A stretch of DNA of 64,000 bases from NCBI GenBank assembly GCA_013792075.1, contig VMSR01000043.1:1-64000 (forward strand), in the 5' to 3' direction. Of the stretch, positions 39,564 to 61,881 are shown one piece after another. The notes below the pieces were generated by a model. It saw only the letters and a list, made by a program, of their open reading frames with translations. It searched no databases and was not told the DNA's origin. Every line of letters starts with the position of its first letter. The first letter of the stretch is position 1. The stretch comes from Desulfobacula sp. GTDB taxonomy: Bacteria; Desulfobacterota; Desulfobacteria; Desulfobacterales; Desulfobacteraceae. The position numbers were made by a program, and so were the translations under genes.

Positions 39564-40412
39564 ATGACACATCCGGGACAAGTGTTAAAAAGAGAAAAAT
39601 TATATGCGGGCAAGGAGATGGGACAAAATTTTCTATCCAGCCCGGGAACTGCAGAGATGATCGTGGAACGAACCGGAATAGACAAGGAGGCAATTGTCCT
39701 GGAAATCGGGCCCGGCCTGGGGGCCCTCACCATCCCCCTTGCCCGGAGAGCCGGCCGTGTCATCGCCGTTGAAAAGGACAGCCGGCTGATTCCTCTTCTG
39801 GAAGAAGAGCTTGCCCTGGAGGAAATCAGCAATGTGACCGTGCTCAACCAGGATATAATGAAAACAGATTTTCGAGAAATTGCCGGAGATGAAAAGCTTA
39901 CCATCATGGGAAATCTTCCCTACAATATTTCATCCCAGATTCTGTTTCGCCTCGTAAAAGAAAGGGCCATCATTGAAAAGGCCTTTTTAATGTTTCAGAA
40001 AGAGCTTGCCACACGGATCATCGCATCTCCCGGAGGAAGGGATTACTCCCGATTGTCAGCCGTGGTGCAATATGCGGCCCAGGTCGGGTTTGTGGCCGAT
40101 ATCAAACCCACCGCTTTTTTCCCGAAACCCGATGTACACTCAACCGTACTGAGATTTGATTTTCTGGCATCTGCAGACATGTCCGCTCCCATGGAGGACC
40201 TGCTCTTTGATGTGATCAAGGCTGCTTTTTCAAAGCGGCGAAAATCCTTGAAAAATTCAATGGCCGGTGGTGAACTGGGCCTTGAAAAATCTGTTGTGAT
40301 AGCGGCATTGACCCATGCCGCCATTGTGCCGGAACGTCGGGCGGAAACCTTGTCAATTGCTGAATTTAAAGCGCTTGCAATGGCCGTTTGGCAGATTCGT
40401 CAGGAGACATGA
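39564..40412 (+). CDS. rsmA: 16S rRNA dimethyladenosine transferase (RsmA/KsgA)
   Basis: A 282-residue SAM-dependent methyltransferase that dimethylates two adjacent adenosines in helix 45 of 16S rRNA. Landmarks are GQNFLSSPGTAEMIV, the SAM-binding VLEIGPGLGALTIPL, VIAVEKDSRL, the catalytic GNLPYNIS and a C-terminal PFPKPDVHSTVLRF-like FFPKPDVHSTVLRF. Length is normal. Its TGA stop overlaps the start of the HD-GYP-like gene, so the two are coupled. A Lys-, Arg-rich segment (FSKRRKSLKNSM) is typical of the RNA-binding tail. Confidence 0.95.
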   Translation: MTHPGQVLKREKLYAGKEMGQNFLSSPGTAEMIVERTGIDKEAIVLEIGPGLGALTIPLARRAGRVIAVEKDSRLIPLLEEELALEEISNVTVLNQDIMKTDFREIAGDEKLTIMGNLPYNISSQILFRLVKERAIIEKAFLMFQKELATRIIASPGGRDYSRLSAVVQYAAQVGFVADIKPTAFFPKPDVHSTVLRFDFLASADMSAPMEDLLFDVIKAAFSKRRKSLKNSMAGGELGLEKSVVIAALTHAAIVPERRAETLSIAEFKALAMAVWQIRQET

Positions 40413-41830
40413 TGATCGAGGCAATGTTTTCCATTGAAAATCTCATTGAAATTGTAAAAACCGGGGGACGTATAAAAACCGGAATAGATGTTTACAATAA
40501 AAAGGGAACATTGCTGCTGGGGAAGAACGAAGTGGTGGACAGGGTAAGATCCCTTGAAATCATCCAGGAGAACGGAATCCGTTCTGTGCCCGTGGCACCG
40601 GATGGGGGGCTTTGGGACGGTAACGGCAACCAGATTCGTATGGGTTCGGACGGGGTGATTGAACTGATTCCTCCCCGGCCGTTGAAGAAATCAGGTTTGT
40701 CGGTTTTGGTGCCTGTCCATGAAAGTTCCCGGGATATTGAGCGACGGTTGCAGGAAATTGAAATGATAAAAAAGGAGACCGTCCAGCGATATGCCCGGGC
40801 AACCCAATGCCTGAAAAACGCATTGCAGCAGATCCGGCAGACCCGTGGGCAGTTTGACGTCCAGGCGGTTGAATCCTGTGTGTCCGGGCTGGTAAAATTT
40901 TTTGTGGATGCAGACCACCCCTTTCAATATATGAGCCGGGAAATCTTTTCCCATGACGACTACCTGTATCAGCATTCCACCAATGTGTGTGCCATTGCCA
41001 CCGCAGTGCTGATAAGATTCAATGAGAATTTTTCCCATACCATTGATAGGTTTTTGTCAGAAAACAGGGCAGACCCCGGGGGTGCCGGCCGGCCGGAGAA
41101 GCGAAAATCAGGGGCTTTTAACTATTATTATCCGGAAGACCTCACTGAAATTTCCCTGGGTTTTTTTTTGTACGACATCGGAAAGGCCATGGTTCCGGAA
41201 AAATTGTTAAACAAAAACAGCCGTCTCACGGAAGAGGAGTTTCAAACCATAAAGCGGCATTCCTTTGAATACGGGGCAAAAATTCTGGAGGACAACAAAA
41301 TTAATAATCGTGTGCTGAACAATATCGTCCGCTACCACCATGCCCCGCTGTTTGAGAACGAAGAAAGTTGCTATCCGCTGGATAAAGCCTGCTCGGATAT
41401 CCCGCTGTATGTCAGGATTTGCAAACTGGCAGATATTTATGATGCCATGACATCCAAAAGAAGCTACAAGGATGCATTGAACCAGGTATCGGTCATTACC
41501 CAATTGTTTCGCAAATATGTTAAGAAGGACGCCGTGCTGCAATTTGTCCTCCACGCCTTTGTAAAAAGTGTCGGCCGCCATCCGCCGGGCAGCATTGTAT
41601 ACCTGGAAAACGGTCAGATGGCCTATGTCCTTGACAGTATCGGCCCCTTGGTTCTTCCCTTTACAGACAACAAAGGCAATACCCTGTCGGCAAAACCGGA
41701 CCCCATTGATATGGGCAGCCCGGGAACACAGCAGCTGTTGAAAATAGACAATGGGCGGAGCATAAAAACCCCCAAGGAAGTATACAAATTTTTGCCGGCA
41801 TATATCAAAAAAGTTGCCATGCCAACCTAG
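40409..41830 (+). CDS. Degenerate HD-GYP-domain protein
   Basis: About 473 residues from the ATG at 40409, with AGGAGA upstream; it overlaps rsmA by ATGA. The N-terminal 80 residues resemble the domain found ahead of many HD-GYP phosphodiesterases (ETGxRIKTGIDVYNKKGTLLL-like). The HD-GYP region is recognisable from SLGFFLYDIGKAMVPEKLL, IKRHSFEYGAKIL and RICKLADIYDAMTSKRSYKDA. However, the HD pair reads Tyr-Asp (residue about 255) and the GYP motif reads CYP (about 321). With a metal-binding His lost, c-di-GMP hydrolysis is doubtful. It may be a c-di-GMP sensor or have another role. It ends with TAG. Confidence 0.82.
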   Translation: MMIEAMFSIENLIEIVKTGGRIKTGIDVYNKKGTLLLGKNEVVDRVRSLEIIQENGIRSVPVAPDGGLWDGNGNQIRMGSDGVIELIPPRPLKKSGLSVLVPVHESSRDIERRLQEIEMIKKETVQRYARATQCLKNALQQIRQTRGQFDVQAVESCVSGLVKFFVDADHPFQYMSREIFSHDDYLYQHSTNVCAIATAVLIRFNENFSHTIDRFLSENRADPGGAGRPEKRKSGAFNYYYPEDLTEISLGFFLYDIGKAMVPEKLLNKNSRLTEEEFQTIKRHSFEYGAKILEDNKINNRVLNNIVRYHHAPLFENEESCYPLDKACSDIPLYVRICKLADIYDAMTSKRSYKDALNQVSVITQLFRKYVKKDAVLQFVLHAFVKSVGRHPPGSIVYLENGQMAYVLDSIGPLVLPFTDNKGNTLSAKPDPIDMGSPGTQQLLKIDNGRSIKTPKEVYKFLPAYIKKVAMPT

Positions 41831-41836
41831 GAAATA

Positions 41837-41976
41837 CAGCGGCAAAGGGGGTAAGGCTCTTCGCTCATTCTCGCCGGACCTCGTGTCCGGCTCCGAGGTG
41901 AATGGCGCTTGGCCCCGTCCATGGGGAACGCTGCCATTTAATACCGCTGCGAACCTCACCCCCTTTGCTGCCGCTG
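41837..41976. repeat. GC-rich three-hairpin structured element
   Basis: The outer arms CAGCGGCAAAGGGGGTAAGG (41837-41856) and 41954-41976 pair over about 19 of 20 bases, with one mismatch and a three-base bulge. Two hairpins sit inside: GCCGGAC-CTCGT-GTCCGGC (41873-41891, perfect), and 41901-41938 with AATGGC/GCCATT and CCCC/GGGG arms around GTCCAT. The result is a three-way junction fold. It starts 6 bases after the HD-GYP stop, is much more GC-rich than the following DNA, and codes for no recognised protein. It may be an interspersed repeat, a mobile non-coding element or a structured RNA. Confidence 0.65.
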
Positions 41977-42359
41977 CCCCGGAAAATAAAATCAATGGCA
42001 GATATTCACCAATCGCTGGACTTCAGCGTCAGATTTTTTGTTCAAACCCCAGGACGTATAGAAGAGCGTTTTGTCGATTATCGTGAATAAGACATTTTTC
42101 CATTTAAAAATTTAGGAATGCTAATGCAAGTAGTCATAACTTTGAGTTTCAGACTTGGGGATATATATTTTTTCCTCTAATTCTTTATGGTAGGGGTTTA
42201 ATTTGGGTGTCTACAATATCGGAGGAGAATCAGGTTTGTAATTAAAAAAATTAGGCTATAATCCAATTTGATTTACGGCCATCCGGTCTTATATTCTAAA
42301 TAGTATAACAGAGAAAGTGTAATAACTGTTATGCGATTTGGTTATATTCGGAGGTAAAT
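41977..42359. other. AT-rich intergenic region after the structured element
   Basis: This stretch has no gene I can support. A 31-codon ORF (41995-42090) has protein-like composition but no ribosome site and no recognised family. An 8-codon ORF (42331-42357) overlaps the ribosome site of the next gene. The region presumably contains the promoter of the Cys-rich small gene; TATAAC at 42303-42308 is a possible -10. Confidence 0.3.
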
Positions 42360-42536
42360 ATGAAATCATATAAAAAGAATAAAGCAGCCATGTGCGCTGC
42401 AATCGGAAAGAAACGAATGATAGATGCGCTTAGATCTTGTGATTACTGCACAACCAGCATGGATAAGCGCAGTGCGTGCTATAAGACTGTAGCCAAGGAC
42501 AGCGGCCTTCGTGCTAAAACCTGTATTCTGATGTAA
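42360..42536 (+). CDS. Small cysteine-rich protein (58 residues), unknown
   Basis: ATG at 42360 has GGAGG (42350-42354) at ideal spacing, the frame runs 58 codons to TAA, and a strong terminator follows 45 bases later. This makes a complete monocistronic unit. The N-terminus is basic (SYKKNKAAM). Five Cys lie at positions 12, 27, 30, 40 and 55, including CDYC (CxxC), and the C-terminus is AKTCILM. There is no signal peptide and no recognised domain. Possible roles include a metal-binding protein, redox protein or modified-peptide precursor; none is shown. Confidence 0.65.
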   Translation: MKSYKKNKAAMCAAIGKKRMIDALRSCDYCTTSMDKRSACYKTVAKDSGLRAKTCILM

Positions 42537-42580
42537 GAATACAATATTATCAGGTCATATGATCGTGTATTACAACATGT

Positions 42581-42620
42581 CGGGCTCAGGAAAATTTTAG
42601 TTTGAGATTTCCTGAGCCCG
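42581..42620 (+). terminator. Strong intrinsic terminator
   Basis: A perfect 13-base stem, CGGGCTCAGGAAA (42581-42593) with TTTCCTGAGCCCG (42608-42620), with a 14-base loop. It is followed by ATATTGTTTTATAAT, a T-rich tail. It ends the 58-residue Cys-rich gene and lies 81 bases before the end of the convergent 139-residue gene. Confidence 0.85.
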
Positions 42621-42701
42621 ATATTGTTTTATAATAAAAAACATTTTTTAAATTCTTAATTATTCTTCAAGATGAAATTTTGCAAAATTCAAACAAAAGC
42701 G

Positions 42702-43121
42702 TTATGGAAATTTTATAGTGACCTCTTTATAGTCAGCCTTATCGTTGACACTGATATTGAGTTCAAGACTTGAATCTCTCAGCCCTAAAGCAAATTTGCT
42801 TTTGCCTTTTGCATCTTCAATATGGGTGATATCTCTTACGACTTCAAAAACATTAGCGGCTATATCATTTCCGGGAGATGGAAGTTCAGTGTCACGATAT
42901 TCGGCCACTACAGAAACACTGCCATCACTGGTCTGTTTGATAGAAATTTTTTTTGCATTGCTGTTTACACCATGGAGTGCCGCCAGGGCAAACCATTTTA
43001 AAGCAGCATCCAGACTATTTTGATCTCCTCTCAATGTGGACATTTCTTTTAATGGATCTGTTGTTGAAAAACAATCACACAATTCTTGTATCTTTAAATG
43101 TAAATTTCCTGAATCTTTCAT
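42702..43121 (-). CDS. Hypothetical protein (139 residues)
   Basis: A complete small gene with AAGGAG 8 bases before the ATG (minus strand). The protein is soluble, with a helical first half (about residues 1-55; LDAALKWFALAALHGVNSNAKK) and a beta-rich second half ending in SLELNISVNDKADYKEVTIKFP. Two Cys (residues 15 and 17, CDC) lie near the N-terminus. I do not recognise a family. It is divergent from the 85-residue gene and convergent with the Cys-rich small gene. Confidence 0.75.
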   Translation of the reverse strand: MKDSGNLHLKIQELCDCFSTTDPLKEMSTLRGDQNSLDAALKWFALAALHGVNSNAKKISIKQTSDGSVSVVAEYRDTELPSPGNDIAANVFEVVRDITHIEDAKGKSKFALGLRDSSLELNISVNDKADYKEVTIKFP

Positions 43122-43320
43122 TGTGTTGTCTCCTTATACAAAAGGGATTAAAGAACCATGTCATAAAATATAAGACGCTTTGGAAGTAATGCAATAATTG
43201 ATTGAATTGTTGGAAGGCCTTGAATTAAAAAACATTTACATTACCTGAAAAAGGATTATTTTTATCTTATAGCGCCTTCAATCCCTATCGTAATGCCATA
43301 AGAAATAACAAGGAGACGAT

Positions 43321-43578
43321 ATGTATAATAAAAATCAATTATGTGAGAAAATAAGATCCGTGCACAAGGATATCGGAAAGTGCGGGATCGATATAAATGT
43401 GGAATACGGCACTGATAATAAGGCATGGGTTGTACACTTAAGAAAAGGGAACCTTAAACTAAAGACTTATCTTGAACCTGAAGATGCGAATATCTGCATG
43501 GACGGGAAACACTGTATCGGACTTGTAATGCAGATATCCCAACTAAAGGACAATATCGTAAATATGAAATATTCATAA
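43321..43578 (+). CDS. Hypothetical protein (85 residues)
   Basis: ATG at 43321 is preceded by AAGGAGACGAT, a strong ribosome site. The protein is small and soluble, with an alternating beta pattern (CGIDINVEYGTDNKAWVVHLRKGNLKLKTYLEP) and a C-terminal helix. Cys lie at residues 8, 21, 59 and 65 (ICMDGKHC). No family is recognised. The stop is 40 bases before the preferred start of the DsrC-like gene, so they are probably one transcript. Confidence 0.75.
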   Translation: MYNKNQLCEKIRSVHKDIGKCGIDINVEYGTDNKAWVVHLRKGNLKLKTYLEPEDANICMDGKHCIGLVMQISQLKDNIVNMKYS

Positions 43579-43618
43579 GAAAAATTTAATGGAAGATCAA
43601 GAGTTTAAGAGGTGGAAA

Positions 43619-43957
43619 ATGATAAAGGTAGATCAAAATAATGCAGATATAATATTAGATCAAGAAGGATATCTTAGAGATTTTGAGTCCTGGACAGAAA
43701 AAATCGCATGTGCTTTAGCAGATCAGGCAAATGTTTCACAGGAATGTCCTTTAAGCGAGGATAGAATGGATATTTTGAAATTCATACGAGACTACTATAT
43801 GAAATTTGAAGCATTTCCAATAGTTAGAGCGGTATGCAAAAACGTTGGGCAGTCAAAGGATTGCCAGTATCAACAATTCCCAGATCCGATCATAGCGTGG
43901 AAAATAGCAGGGCTTCCCAAACCCACGCCAGAGGTACTTGCCAAGATTAAACACTAA
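43619..43957 (+). CDS. DsrC/TusE-family protein lacking the C-terminal redox cysteines
   Basis: A 112-residue protein. The start at 43619 is preferred over the frame opening at 43589 because GAGGTGG lies just upstream and it matches the family N-terminus. Family features are DQEGYLRDFESWTEKIACALAD, DILKFIRDYYMKFEAFPIVRAVCK and the end WKIAGLPKPTPEV. In functional DsrC the C-terminal arm reads CKIAGLPKPTxC, and the two Cys carry sulfur or form the trisulfide. Here they are Trp (about residue 94) and Pro (about 104). It is therefore not a canonical sulfur carrier and may be a regulatory or partner-binding paralogue. Other Cys are present at about 31, 43, 73 and 82. Confidence 0.82.
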   Translation: MIKVDQNNADIILDQEGYLRDFESWTEKIACALADQANVSQECPLSEDRMDILKFIRDYYMKFEAFPIVRAVCKNVGQSKDCQYQQFPDPIIAWKIAGLPKPTPEVLAKIKH

Positions 43958-44125
43958 GCTAAAGCGAGAAGAGAAACAGGCAGTAATTATGGATTGCTTG
44001 ACGTGTTCCTCACAATGTCTAACATTATTTTAATGATGCCGTATTTTTTAAATACCATCTTGTGTCCTCATTCAAGCGGCACCATAACAAATGATCTCTA
44101 ATATCAAAAATGGAGGTATGCTAGC

Positions 44126-44293
44126 ATGAGTGATGATAAACAGAAAACTTTATGCGCCCATATAGAAGAAGAACTGCAGGTCAAAGACCCGCAGGCATAG
44201 GTAAAACTTATTAAACCAGCCACACATTACTGTGAAGGCTGTGGACGTAGCGTGGCTAAATCTGAAAATGTGTGTAAGCCAAAAAAATTTTAA
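44126..44293 (+). CDS. Small Cys-motif protein interrupted in frame by TAG
   Basis: ATG at 44126 has GGAGG (44112-44116) upstream. The first 24 codons run to TAG at 44198-44200. The same frame then stays open for 30 more codons to TAA at 44291-44293. The second part, HYCEGCGRSVAKSENVCKPKKF, has a zinc-ribbon-like CxxC and a later Cys, with a protein-like ending. The two halves read as one 55-residue protein (Cys at about 10, 36, 39 and 50) with an amber codon at position 25. Readings are amber decoding (for example pyrrolysine), a nonsense mutation of Gln, Trp or another codon, or a 24-residue peptide with chance continuation. No ribosome site precedes the second part. Confidence 0.5.
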
Positions 44294-44365
44294 TCCGTCA
44301 TAATTTACCCTGGCACTCCTCTGGTGTACTGGGGTACTTGAATTGCACGTGAAATAAACATGGAA

Positions 44366-61002: not shown

Positions 61003-61881
61003 ATGGAAATTGCAAAAAAAAAGACAATCATCGGGTTTATCGGCCTTGGGGTCATGGGGCACAGCATGGCCGGTCATCTTCTGGAGGCCGGCTTTGCCCT
61101 GCATGTATACAATAGAACAGCGTCAAAGGCCGATGACCTGGTGAAAAAAGGGGCGGTTCTGGAAGCCAGGGTTGCAGATCTTGCCCAAAAATCAGATGTC
61201 ATCATCTCCATTGTGGGGTTCCCCGGGGATGTTGAACAGGTGTATCTGGGAAGCCTGGGCGTGCTGGAGAATGCAAAACCGGGCAGTATTGCCATTGATA
61301 TGACCACATCGGATCCGGCCCTTGCCATTGACCTTTATGACAAGGGGAGGCAAAAGAAAATCCATGTGCTGGATGCCCCGGTATCCGGGGGAGACCTGGG
61401 GGCAAAAAATGCCAGCCTCTCCATTATGGTGGGGGGGGACAAGAAGATCTTTGACAAAGCCCTGCCTGTTCTGGAAATCATGGGGAAAAATATCGTATAC
61501 CAGGGTGGGGCAGGTGCGGGCCAGCATACCAAAATGGCCAACCAGATCGCCATTGCCGCCGGCATGGTGGCAATGTGTGAGGCTTTGGCCTATGCATCCA
61601 GGGCCGGCCTGGACCCTGAAACCGTTCTTGGGAGCATCGGCCAGGGTGCGGCAGGTTCATGGTCCCTGAACAATCTGGGCCCCAGAATTATTCAAAAAAA
61701 TGACAAACCCGGTTTTTTCATCAAGCATTTTATCAAAGACATGAAGATTGCTGCGGCATCTTCCAAGCGCCTGGGCCTTGAAACGCCGGGGCTTGACCTT
61801 GCCCTGTCCTTGTATCGCAAAATGGCGGAGAAGGGGCTGGAAAACGACGGTACCCAGGCCCTTTATAAATTGTTTGAATAG
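61003..61881 (+). CDS. NAD(P)-dependent beta-hydroxyacid dehydrogenase (3-hydroxyisobutyrate dehydrogenase family)
   Basis: A 292-residue enzyme. Landmarks are TIIGFIGLGVMGHSMAGHLL (cofactor site), DAPVSGGDLGAKNASLSIMVGG (substrate-binding SGG) and GAGQHTKMANQ with the catalytic Lys. This is the 3-hydroxyisobutyrate/tartronate semialdehyde/glyoxylate-succinic-semialdehyde reductase family; the exact substrate is unclear. GGGAGGGG precedes the ATG. An eight-base G tract (61431-61438) lies inside the gene. It ends with TAG and is followed after 21 bases by the DedA-like gene. Confidence 0.9.
   Translation: MEIAKKKTIIGFIGLGVMGHSMAGHLLEAGFALHVYNRTASKADDLVKKGAVLEARVADLAQKSDVIISIVGFPGDVEQVYLGSLGVLENAKPGSIAIDMTTSDPALAIDLYDKGRQKKIHVLDAPVSGGDLGAKNASLSIMVGGDKKIFDKALPVLEIMGKNIVYQGGAGAGQHTKMANQIAIAAGMVAMCEALAYASRAGLDPETVLGSIGQGAAGSWSLNNLGPRIIQKNDKPGFFIKHFIKDMKIAAASSKRLGLETPGLDLALSLYRKMAEKGLENDGTQALYKLFE

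Follow-up and report, generated by a model that had tools for sequence, protein, structure and literature searches.

Pyrrolysine (Pyl) use by marine Desulfobacteraceae has been published, with MttB proteins that contain an in-frame UAG (PMC8318568). A further report describes in-frame stops under purifying selection as widespread among bacteria (PMC7918605). The window studied here, a 64,000-nucleotide stretch of DNA from Desulfobacula sp., contains a small Cys-motif gene of 55 codons (44126-44293, plus strand) that is broken by TAG at codon 25. As Pyl is established in marine Desulfobacteraceae (PMC8318568), the possibility raised in a preliminary description, that this UAG is decoded as pyrrolysine, was a reasonable lead in general. 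Our analysis is best explained by a nonsense mutation that recently turned Tyr25 into an amber codon, in an accessory gene that is dispensable; we consider this reading probable.

The open reading frame starts with ATG at 44126 and continues for 24 sense codons up to the TAG (44198-44200, plus strand). It is followed in the same frame by 30 sense codons and by TAA at 44291-44293. A Shine-Dalgarno GGAGG is located at 44112-44116 (plus strand), the start region reading GGAGG-TATGCTAGC-ATG, and TGGAGG or a similar sequence is found in most relatives. The translation is MSDDKQKTLCAHIEEELQVKDPQA before the TAG and VKLIKPATHYCEGCGRSVAKSENVCKPKKF after it. This layout, including the good ribosome site, is the one given in the preliminary description. 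By our estimate, a run of 30 open codons occurs about one time in four by chance in random sequence, and is alone not significant. The window protein, with X in place of the TAG, was therefore compared with 97 other genomes. Eight uninterrupted copies were obtained from seven of them, one belonging to the same genus as the window (69-83% identity, E-values from 5e-25 to 2e-28, query residues 1-53 to 1-55). The gene was present in 9 of the 97 genomes searched. Because the homologues read straight through the position of the TAG, the open frame 3′ to it does not result from chance. Judged by this alignment, the second half with its CxxC...C motif, initially described as protein-like, is genuine protein-coding sequence.

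In a genome collection, 30 homologous loci were identified, 29 of them full length. They belong to Desulfobacterales and Desulfobulbales lineages, including Desulfospira joergensenii, Desulfobacula, Desulfosarcina, Desulfofustis and Desulforhopalus. Scanning 389 genomes of the order gave 35 places in 32 genomes. C10, H34 and the three cysteines of the CxxC...C motif (C36, C39, C50) are invariant across the family, and all five residues are retained in the window copy. This Cys/His set suggests metal binding. The family consists of uncharacterised proteins of 55 residues, and searches of Pfam, NCBIfam and the PDB gave no match above cut-offs. An intact relative was modelled with AlphaFold (pLDDT 69, pTM 0.37). 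The model has two short helices, the second of which contains residue 25, and a small beta part that bears cysteines. When the protein was considered as a zinc ribbon or zinc finger, no Pfam profile matched above cut-off, and Foldseek, run with this model, found nothing in the PDB with E below 4. No second intact copy of the gene was found in the genome of the window, the other match being a weak paralogue. The same genome also encodes a paralogous 76-aa protein (L002:1432-1659, contig C288) with three tandem CxxCG...C.P motifs, for which no Pfam or NCBIfam family was found above cut-off.

The residue at position 25 of the homologues, a check proposed at the outset, is informative. Codon 25 is aromatic in 29/29 full-length relatives of the collection, with Tyr in 27 cases and Phe in two. 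The codon is TAT in 24 relatives, TAC in two and a Phe codon in two; in the last one, L047, a one-residue deletion shifts the Tyr to codon 24. A distant subfamily (KTLCALQEEG...F.KLI.PA..FC..CGRSA) also carries Phe at this position. A TAG inside the gene occurs at one of the 35 places from the 389-genome scan, namely in the window copy. Tyr or Phe everywhere counts against pyrrolysine, and three genomes that bear PylS (G002, G008 and G014) yet have TAT at codon 25 of their homologue. In one distant homologue, L130 (G253:C345:3964-4125), codon 5 is TAA, a nonsense change that arose independently. This TAA cannot be pyrrolysine, and it shows that the gene family is nonsense-broken elsewhere too.

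The genome of the window (5.3 Mb, 98.9% complete, 308 contigs) was then searched for the pyrrolysine machinery, as had also been proposed. PylS (TIGR02367) was not found, the best score being 24.5 bits as compared to a cut-off of 178, whereas the same model reached 283-305 bits in genus mates G001-G004. The search for PylD (TIGR03911; Pyl biosynthesis) was likewise negative, with a best score of 22.7 bits as compared to a cut-off of 150, and no MttB-family methyltransferase was found in this genome. As a query for pylT, we used the gene of G001, a genome in which ARAGORN calls tRNA-Pyl. It matched G002 and G004 at E ~1e-31 and gave no strong match in G003 (E 1), the assembly of which is 84% complete. 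In the window genome, pylT was not found (best E 4.4). None of the 41 tRNAs detected there has a CTA anticodon, and an amber-suppressor tRNA was rejected on these grounds. The negative results for the Pyl parts carry weight because the same searches succeed in the genus mates. Overall, it seems that the Pyl system was either lost from the window lineage or never present in it, as for PylS and pylT in G005. The machinery is thus patchy within a single genus: PylS occurs in four of the five genus mates (G001-G004) and is absent from G005 and from the window genome, which also lacks MttB.

A small metal-binding protein with UAG read as pyrrolysine would find precedent in the published Pyl-using marine Desulfobacteraceae (PMC8318568) and in G001-G004, which contain mttB with an in-frame TAG in addition to PylS. 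However, a window genome without PylS, PylD, pylT or MttB and homologues with Tyr or Phe, PylS-bearing genomes included, make it extremely improbable. Pyrrolysine decoding is thereby ruled out as far as the incomplete assembly allows, the machinery being absent and the TAG not being conserved in homologues. The preliminary description had named beforehand a sense codon in the relatives and a genome devoid of pyl genes as the observations that would speak against its proposal; both were found, the second for PylS, PylD and pylT. Its statement that UAG still works as a stop in this DNA is upheld. Indeed, among the 43 long ORFs of the window that do not overlap, 7 end in TAG. At one of these seven (61879-61881), another 152 open codons follow the TAG in frame, but two genes are present: the domain of a 3-hydroxyisobutyrate-dehydrogenase-type protein stops two residues short of the TAG, and a distinct frame encoding a VTT domain comes after it. 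In a genome without the machinery for reading UAG as pyrrolysine, and with the usual Tyr in the relatives, the gene is most likely an ordinary, recently broken one. The nonsense mutation, which had been mentioned initially as an alternative, is supported in this way by a sense codon (Tyr/Phe) in all 29 relatives together with the lack of Pyl machinery.

We next consider the state of the broken copy. TAT and TAG differ by one base change (T to G). The 30 codons 3′ to the TAG contain no frameshift and no second stop, and the promoter, the 5′-leader hairpin, the Shine-Dalgarno sequence and the downstream frame are all intact. Selection after the TAG was gauged by pairwise counts and by consensus-based counts. 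Pairwise counts hint at extra non-synonymous change in this part. With the consensus, 3/12 scored changes were obtained as compared to 34/112 in the relatives (P ~0.6-0.76), a value based on small counts and lying within the range of the family. As no decay is visible beyond the single stop, the break should be young. Three readings therefore stand side by side: a mutation that arose recently compared with the split from known relatives, a second half that is still in use, and an error in the sequence at this base.

The main alternative to an ordinary nonsense mutation is a sequencing or assembly error, the organism really having TAT (Tyr) and an intact gene. The fragmentation of the assembly into 308 contigs, the single base that separates TAG from the family codon TAT and the lack of decay around the TAG are in its favor. 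However, the window copy also departs from the majority at codons 26 and 27 (GTA AAA in the window, ATT GCA in most relatives), showing that the neighbourhood of the TAG has genuinely diverged; we regard such an error as unlikely. A second alternative is leaky termination, in which a near-cognate tRNA such as tRNA-Tyr(GUA) would weakly suppress the UAG, with a trace of full-length protein keeping the second half under selection. The resemblance of the second half to functional relatives and the reported frequency of in-frame stops under purifying selection (PMC7918605) are consistent with this explanation. A young nonsense mutation would however look identical, and the TAG is absent from every relative, so that there is no conserved readthrough signal. 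Altogether, leaky termination appears quite unlikely.

Upstream of the gene, a promoter-like element (43998-44025, plus strand) consists of TTGACG, a 16-bp spacer and TAACAT. It is conserved in 24 of the 30 homologous loci as TTGA[CT] and TA at fixed spacing, with 16 bp between the hexamers (TTGACA-N16-TANNNT), and the consensus is TTGACATG-N9-RTGTCTA. The ATG lies 66-109 nucleotides from the point three bases past the second hexamer. Directly after the promoter, in most homologous loci, comes a hairpin. In the window it covers 44037-44081 (plus strand), near the inferred mRNA 5′ end, with arms TGCCGT (44037-44042) and GCGGCA (44076-44081). The arm sequences differ between loci while pairing is kept, as in TGCCGT/GCGGCA, GTCGCC/GGCGAC and CAGGTCGTT/AACGACCTG. 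Folding of the leader gave a mean z of -1.95, whereas coding segments taken from the same loci as controls averaged -0.03. The promoter-like element and the hairpin (43998-44081 in the window) are also observed upstream of the homologues in L028-L053. A search of Rfam gave nothing above chance. The pattern of the promoter element was also searched in the genome of the window itself and gave 14 matches as compared to 11 for the reversed control; therefore, no regulon is visible. Known 5′ stem-loops stabilise mRNAs or govern their translation, and by analogy the leader hairpin would likely play one of these roles. The conserved promoter with its 5′ hairpin is the more durable by-product of the analysis. 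One could also imagine that the TAG is a leaky regulatory stop. In a lineage that does not decode pyrrolysine, low-level readthrough by ordinary tRNAs would then give a trace of Cys-motif protein from the conserved promoter and its structured leader; we hold this to be very improbable.

The gene forms the right edge of an accessory stretch of about 2.5 kb (41832-44349). Genus mates G003 and G005 have only about 60 bp between the HD-domain gene (40388-41830 in the window) and the sequence matching position 44350, which precedes an aminotransferase gene. The 2.5-kb stretch contains a 58-aa Cys-containing ORF, a 139-aa ORF on the minus strand, an 85-aa ORF, a DsrC-like gene and the interrupted gene. 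The DsrC/TusE-like protein (43589-43957; PF04358, TIGR03342, above the NCBIfam cut-off) ends with ...GLPKPTPEVLAKIKH and is devoid of the conserved C-terminal Cys. The 85-aa ORF (43321-43578) accompanies the DsrC-like gene in the window, in L029 and in G002. Both adjoin the homologue in L029, in opposite orientation, and a DsrC-like fragment lies beside the homologue in G002 (L028). When the neighbours in the 30 loci were clustered, no family turned up at more than five of them, and thus no conserved neighbourhood pointing to a function. A neighbourhood varying from locus to locus fits an accessory, often lost gene. No clear direct repeats indicative of mobile-element borders flank the 2.5-kb stretch. 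At its left edge, a 164-bp G+C-rich stretch (41837-42000) contains inverted repeats, and no copy of it was found elsewhere in the window or in the loci examined.

The following scheme would account for the nonsense mutation. In the family, the 55-aa protein is made from a gene that stands alone, looks monocistronic and carries a promoter of its own together with a short structured leader. In the genome of the window, a single T-to-G change would have converted Tyr25 (TAT) to TAG. Ribosomes would start at 44126, add 24 residues and terminate, leaving out the Cys-motif half, so that the truncated 24-residue product is probably non-functional. Because the gene is patchily distributed and lies in an accessory stretch, its loss is likely tolerated. 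We infer that termination occurs at the UAG, that function is lost and that the organism itself carries the change, as opposed to an error in the sequence having produced it.

The locus can finally be compared with known systems. It resembles the nonsense-mutation pseudogenes of bacteria in being a single-copy, patchily distributed, dispensable gene with one premature stop where intact relatives have a sense codon; it differs from them in that no further decay was detected. With the Pyl proteins of Desulfobacteraceae, such as MttB with its in-frame UAG (PMC8318568), the gene shares an in-frame TAG and the bacterial family, and genus mates possess such proteins. In contrast, the window genome is without the machinery, the TAG is not conserved, and the site is Tyr/Phe in relatives rather than a catalytic Pyl site. 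Even where a lineage is known for pyrrolysine, an in-frame TAG does not have to encode it: most genomes of the genus have the system, whereas the window genome has no tested part of it. The comparison also brings to light a small protein of sulfate reducers that is well conserved and uncharacterised, without Pfam or NCBIfam entry, together with its conserved promoter and leader hairpin. The small, uncharacterised CxxCG...LCxP proteins of Desulfobacterota (for instance the 76-aa triple-motif protein of L002) share with it the CxxCG and LC(K/D)P spacing, whereas in the window family one motif is combined with an N-terminal half bearing C10.
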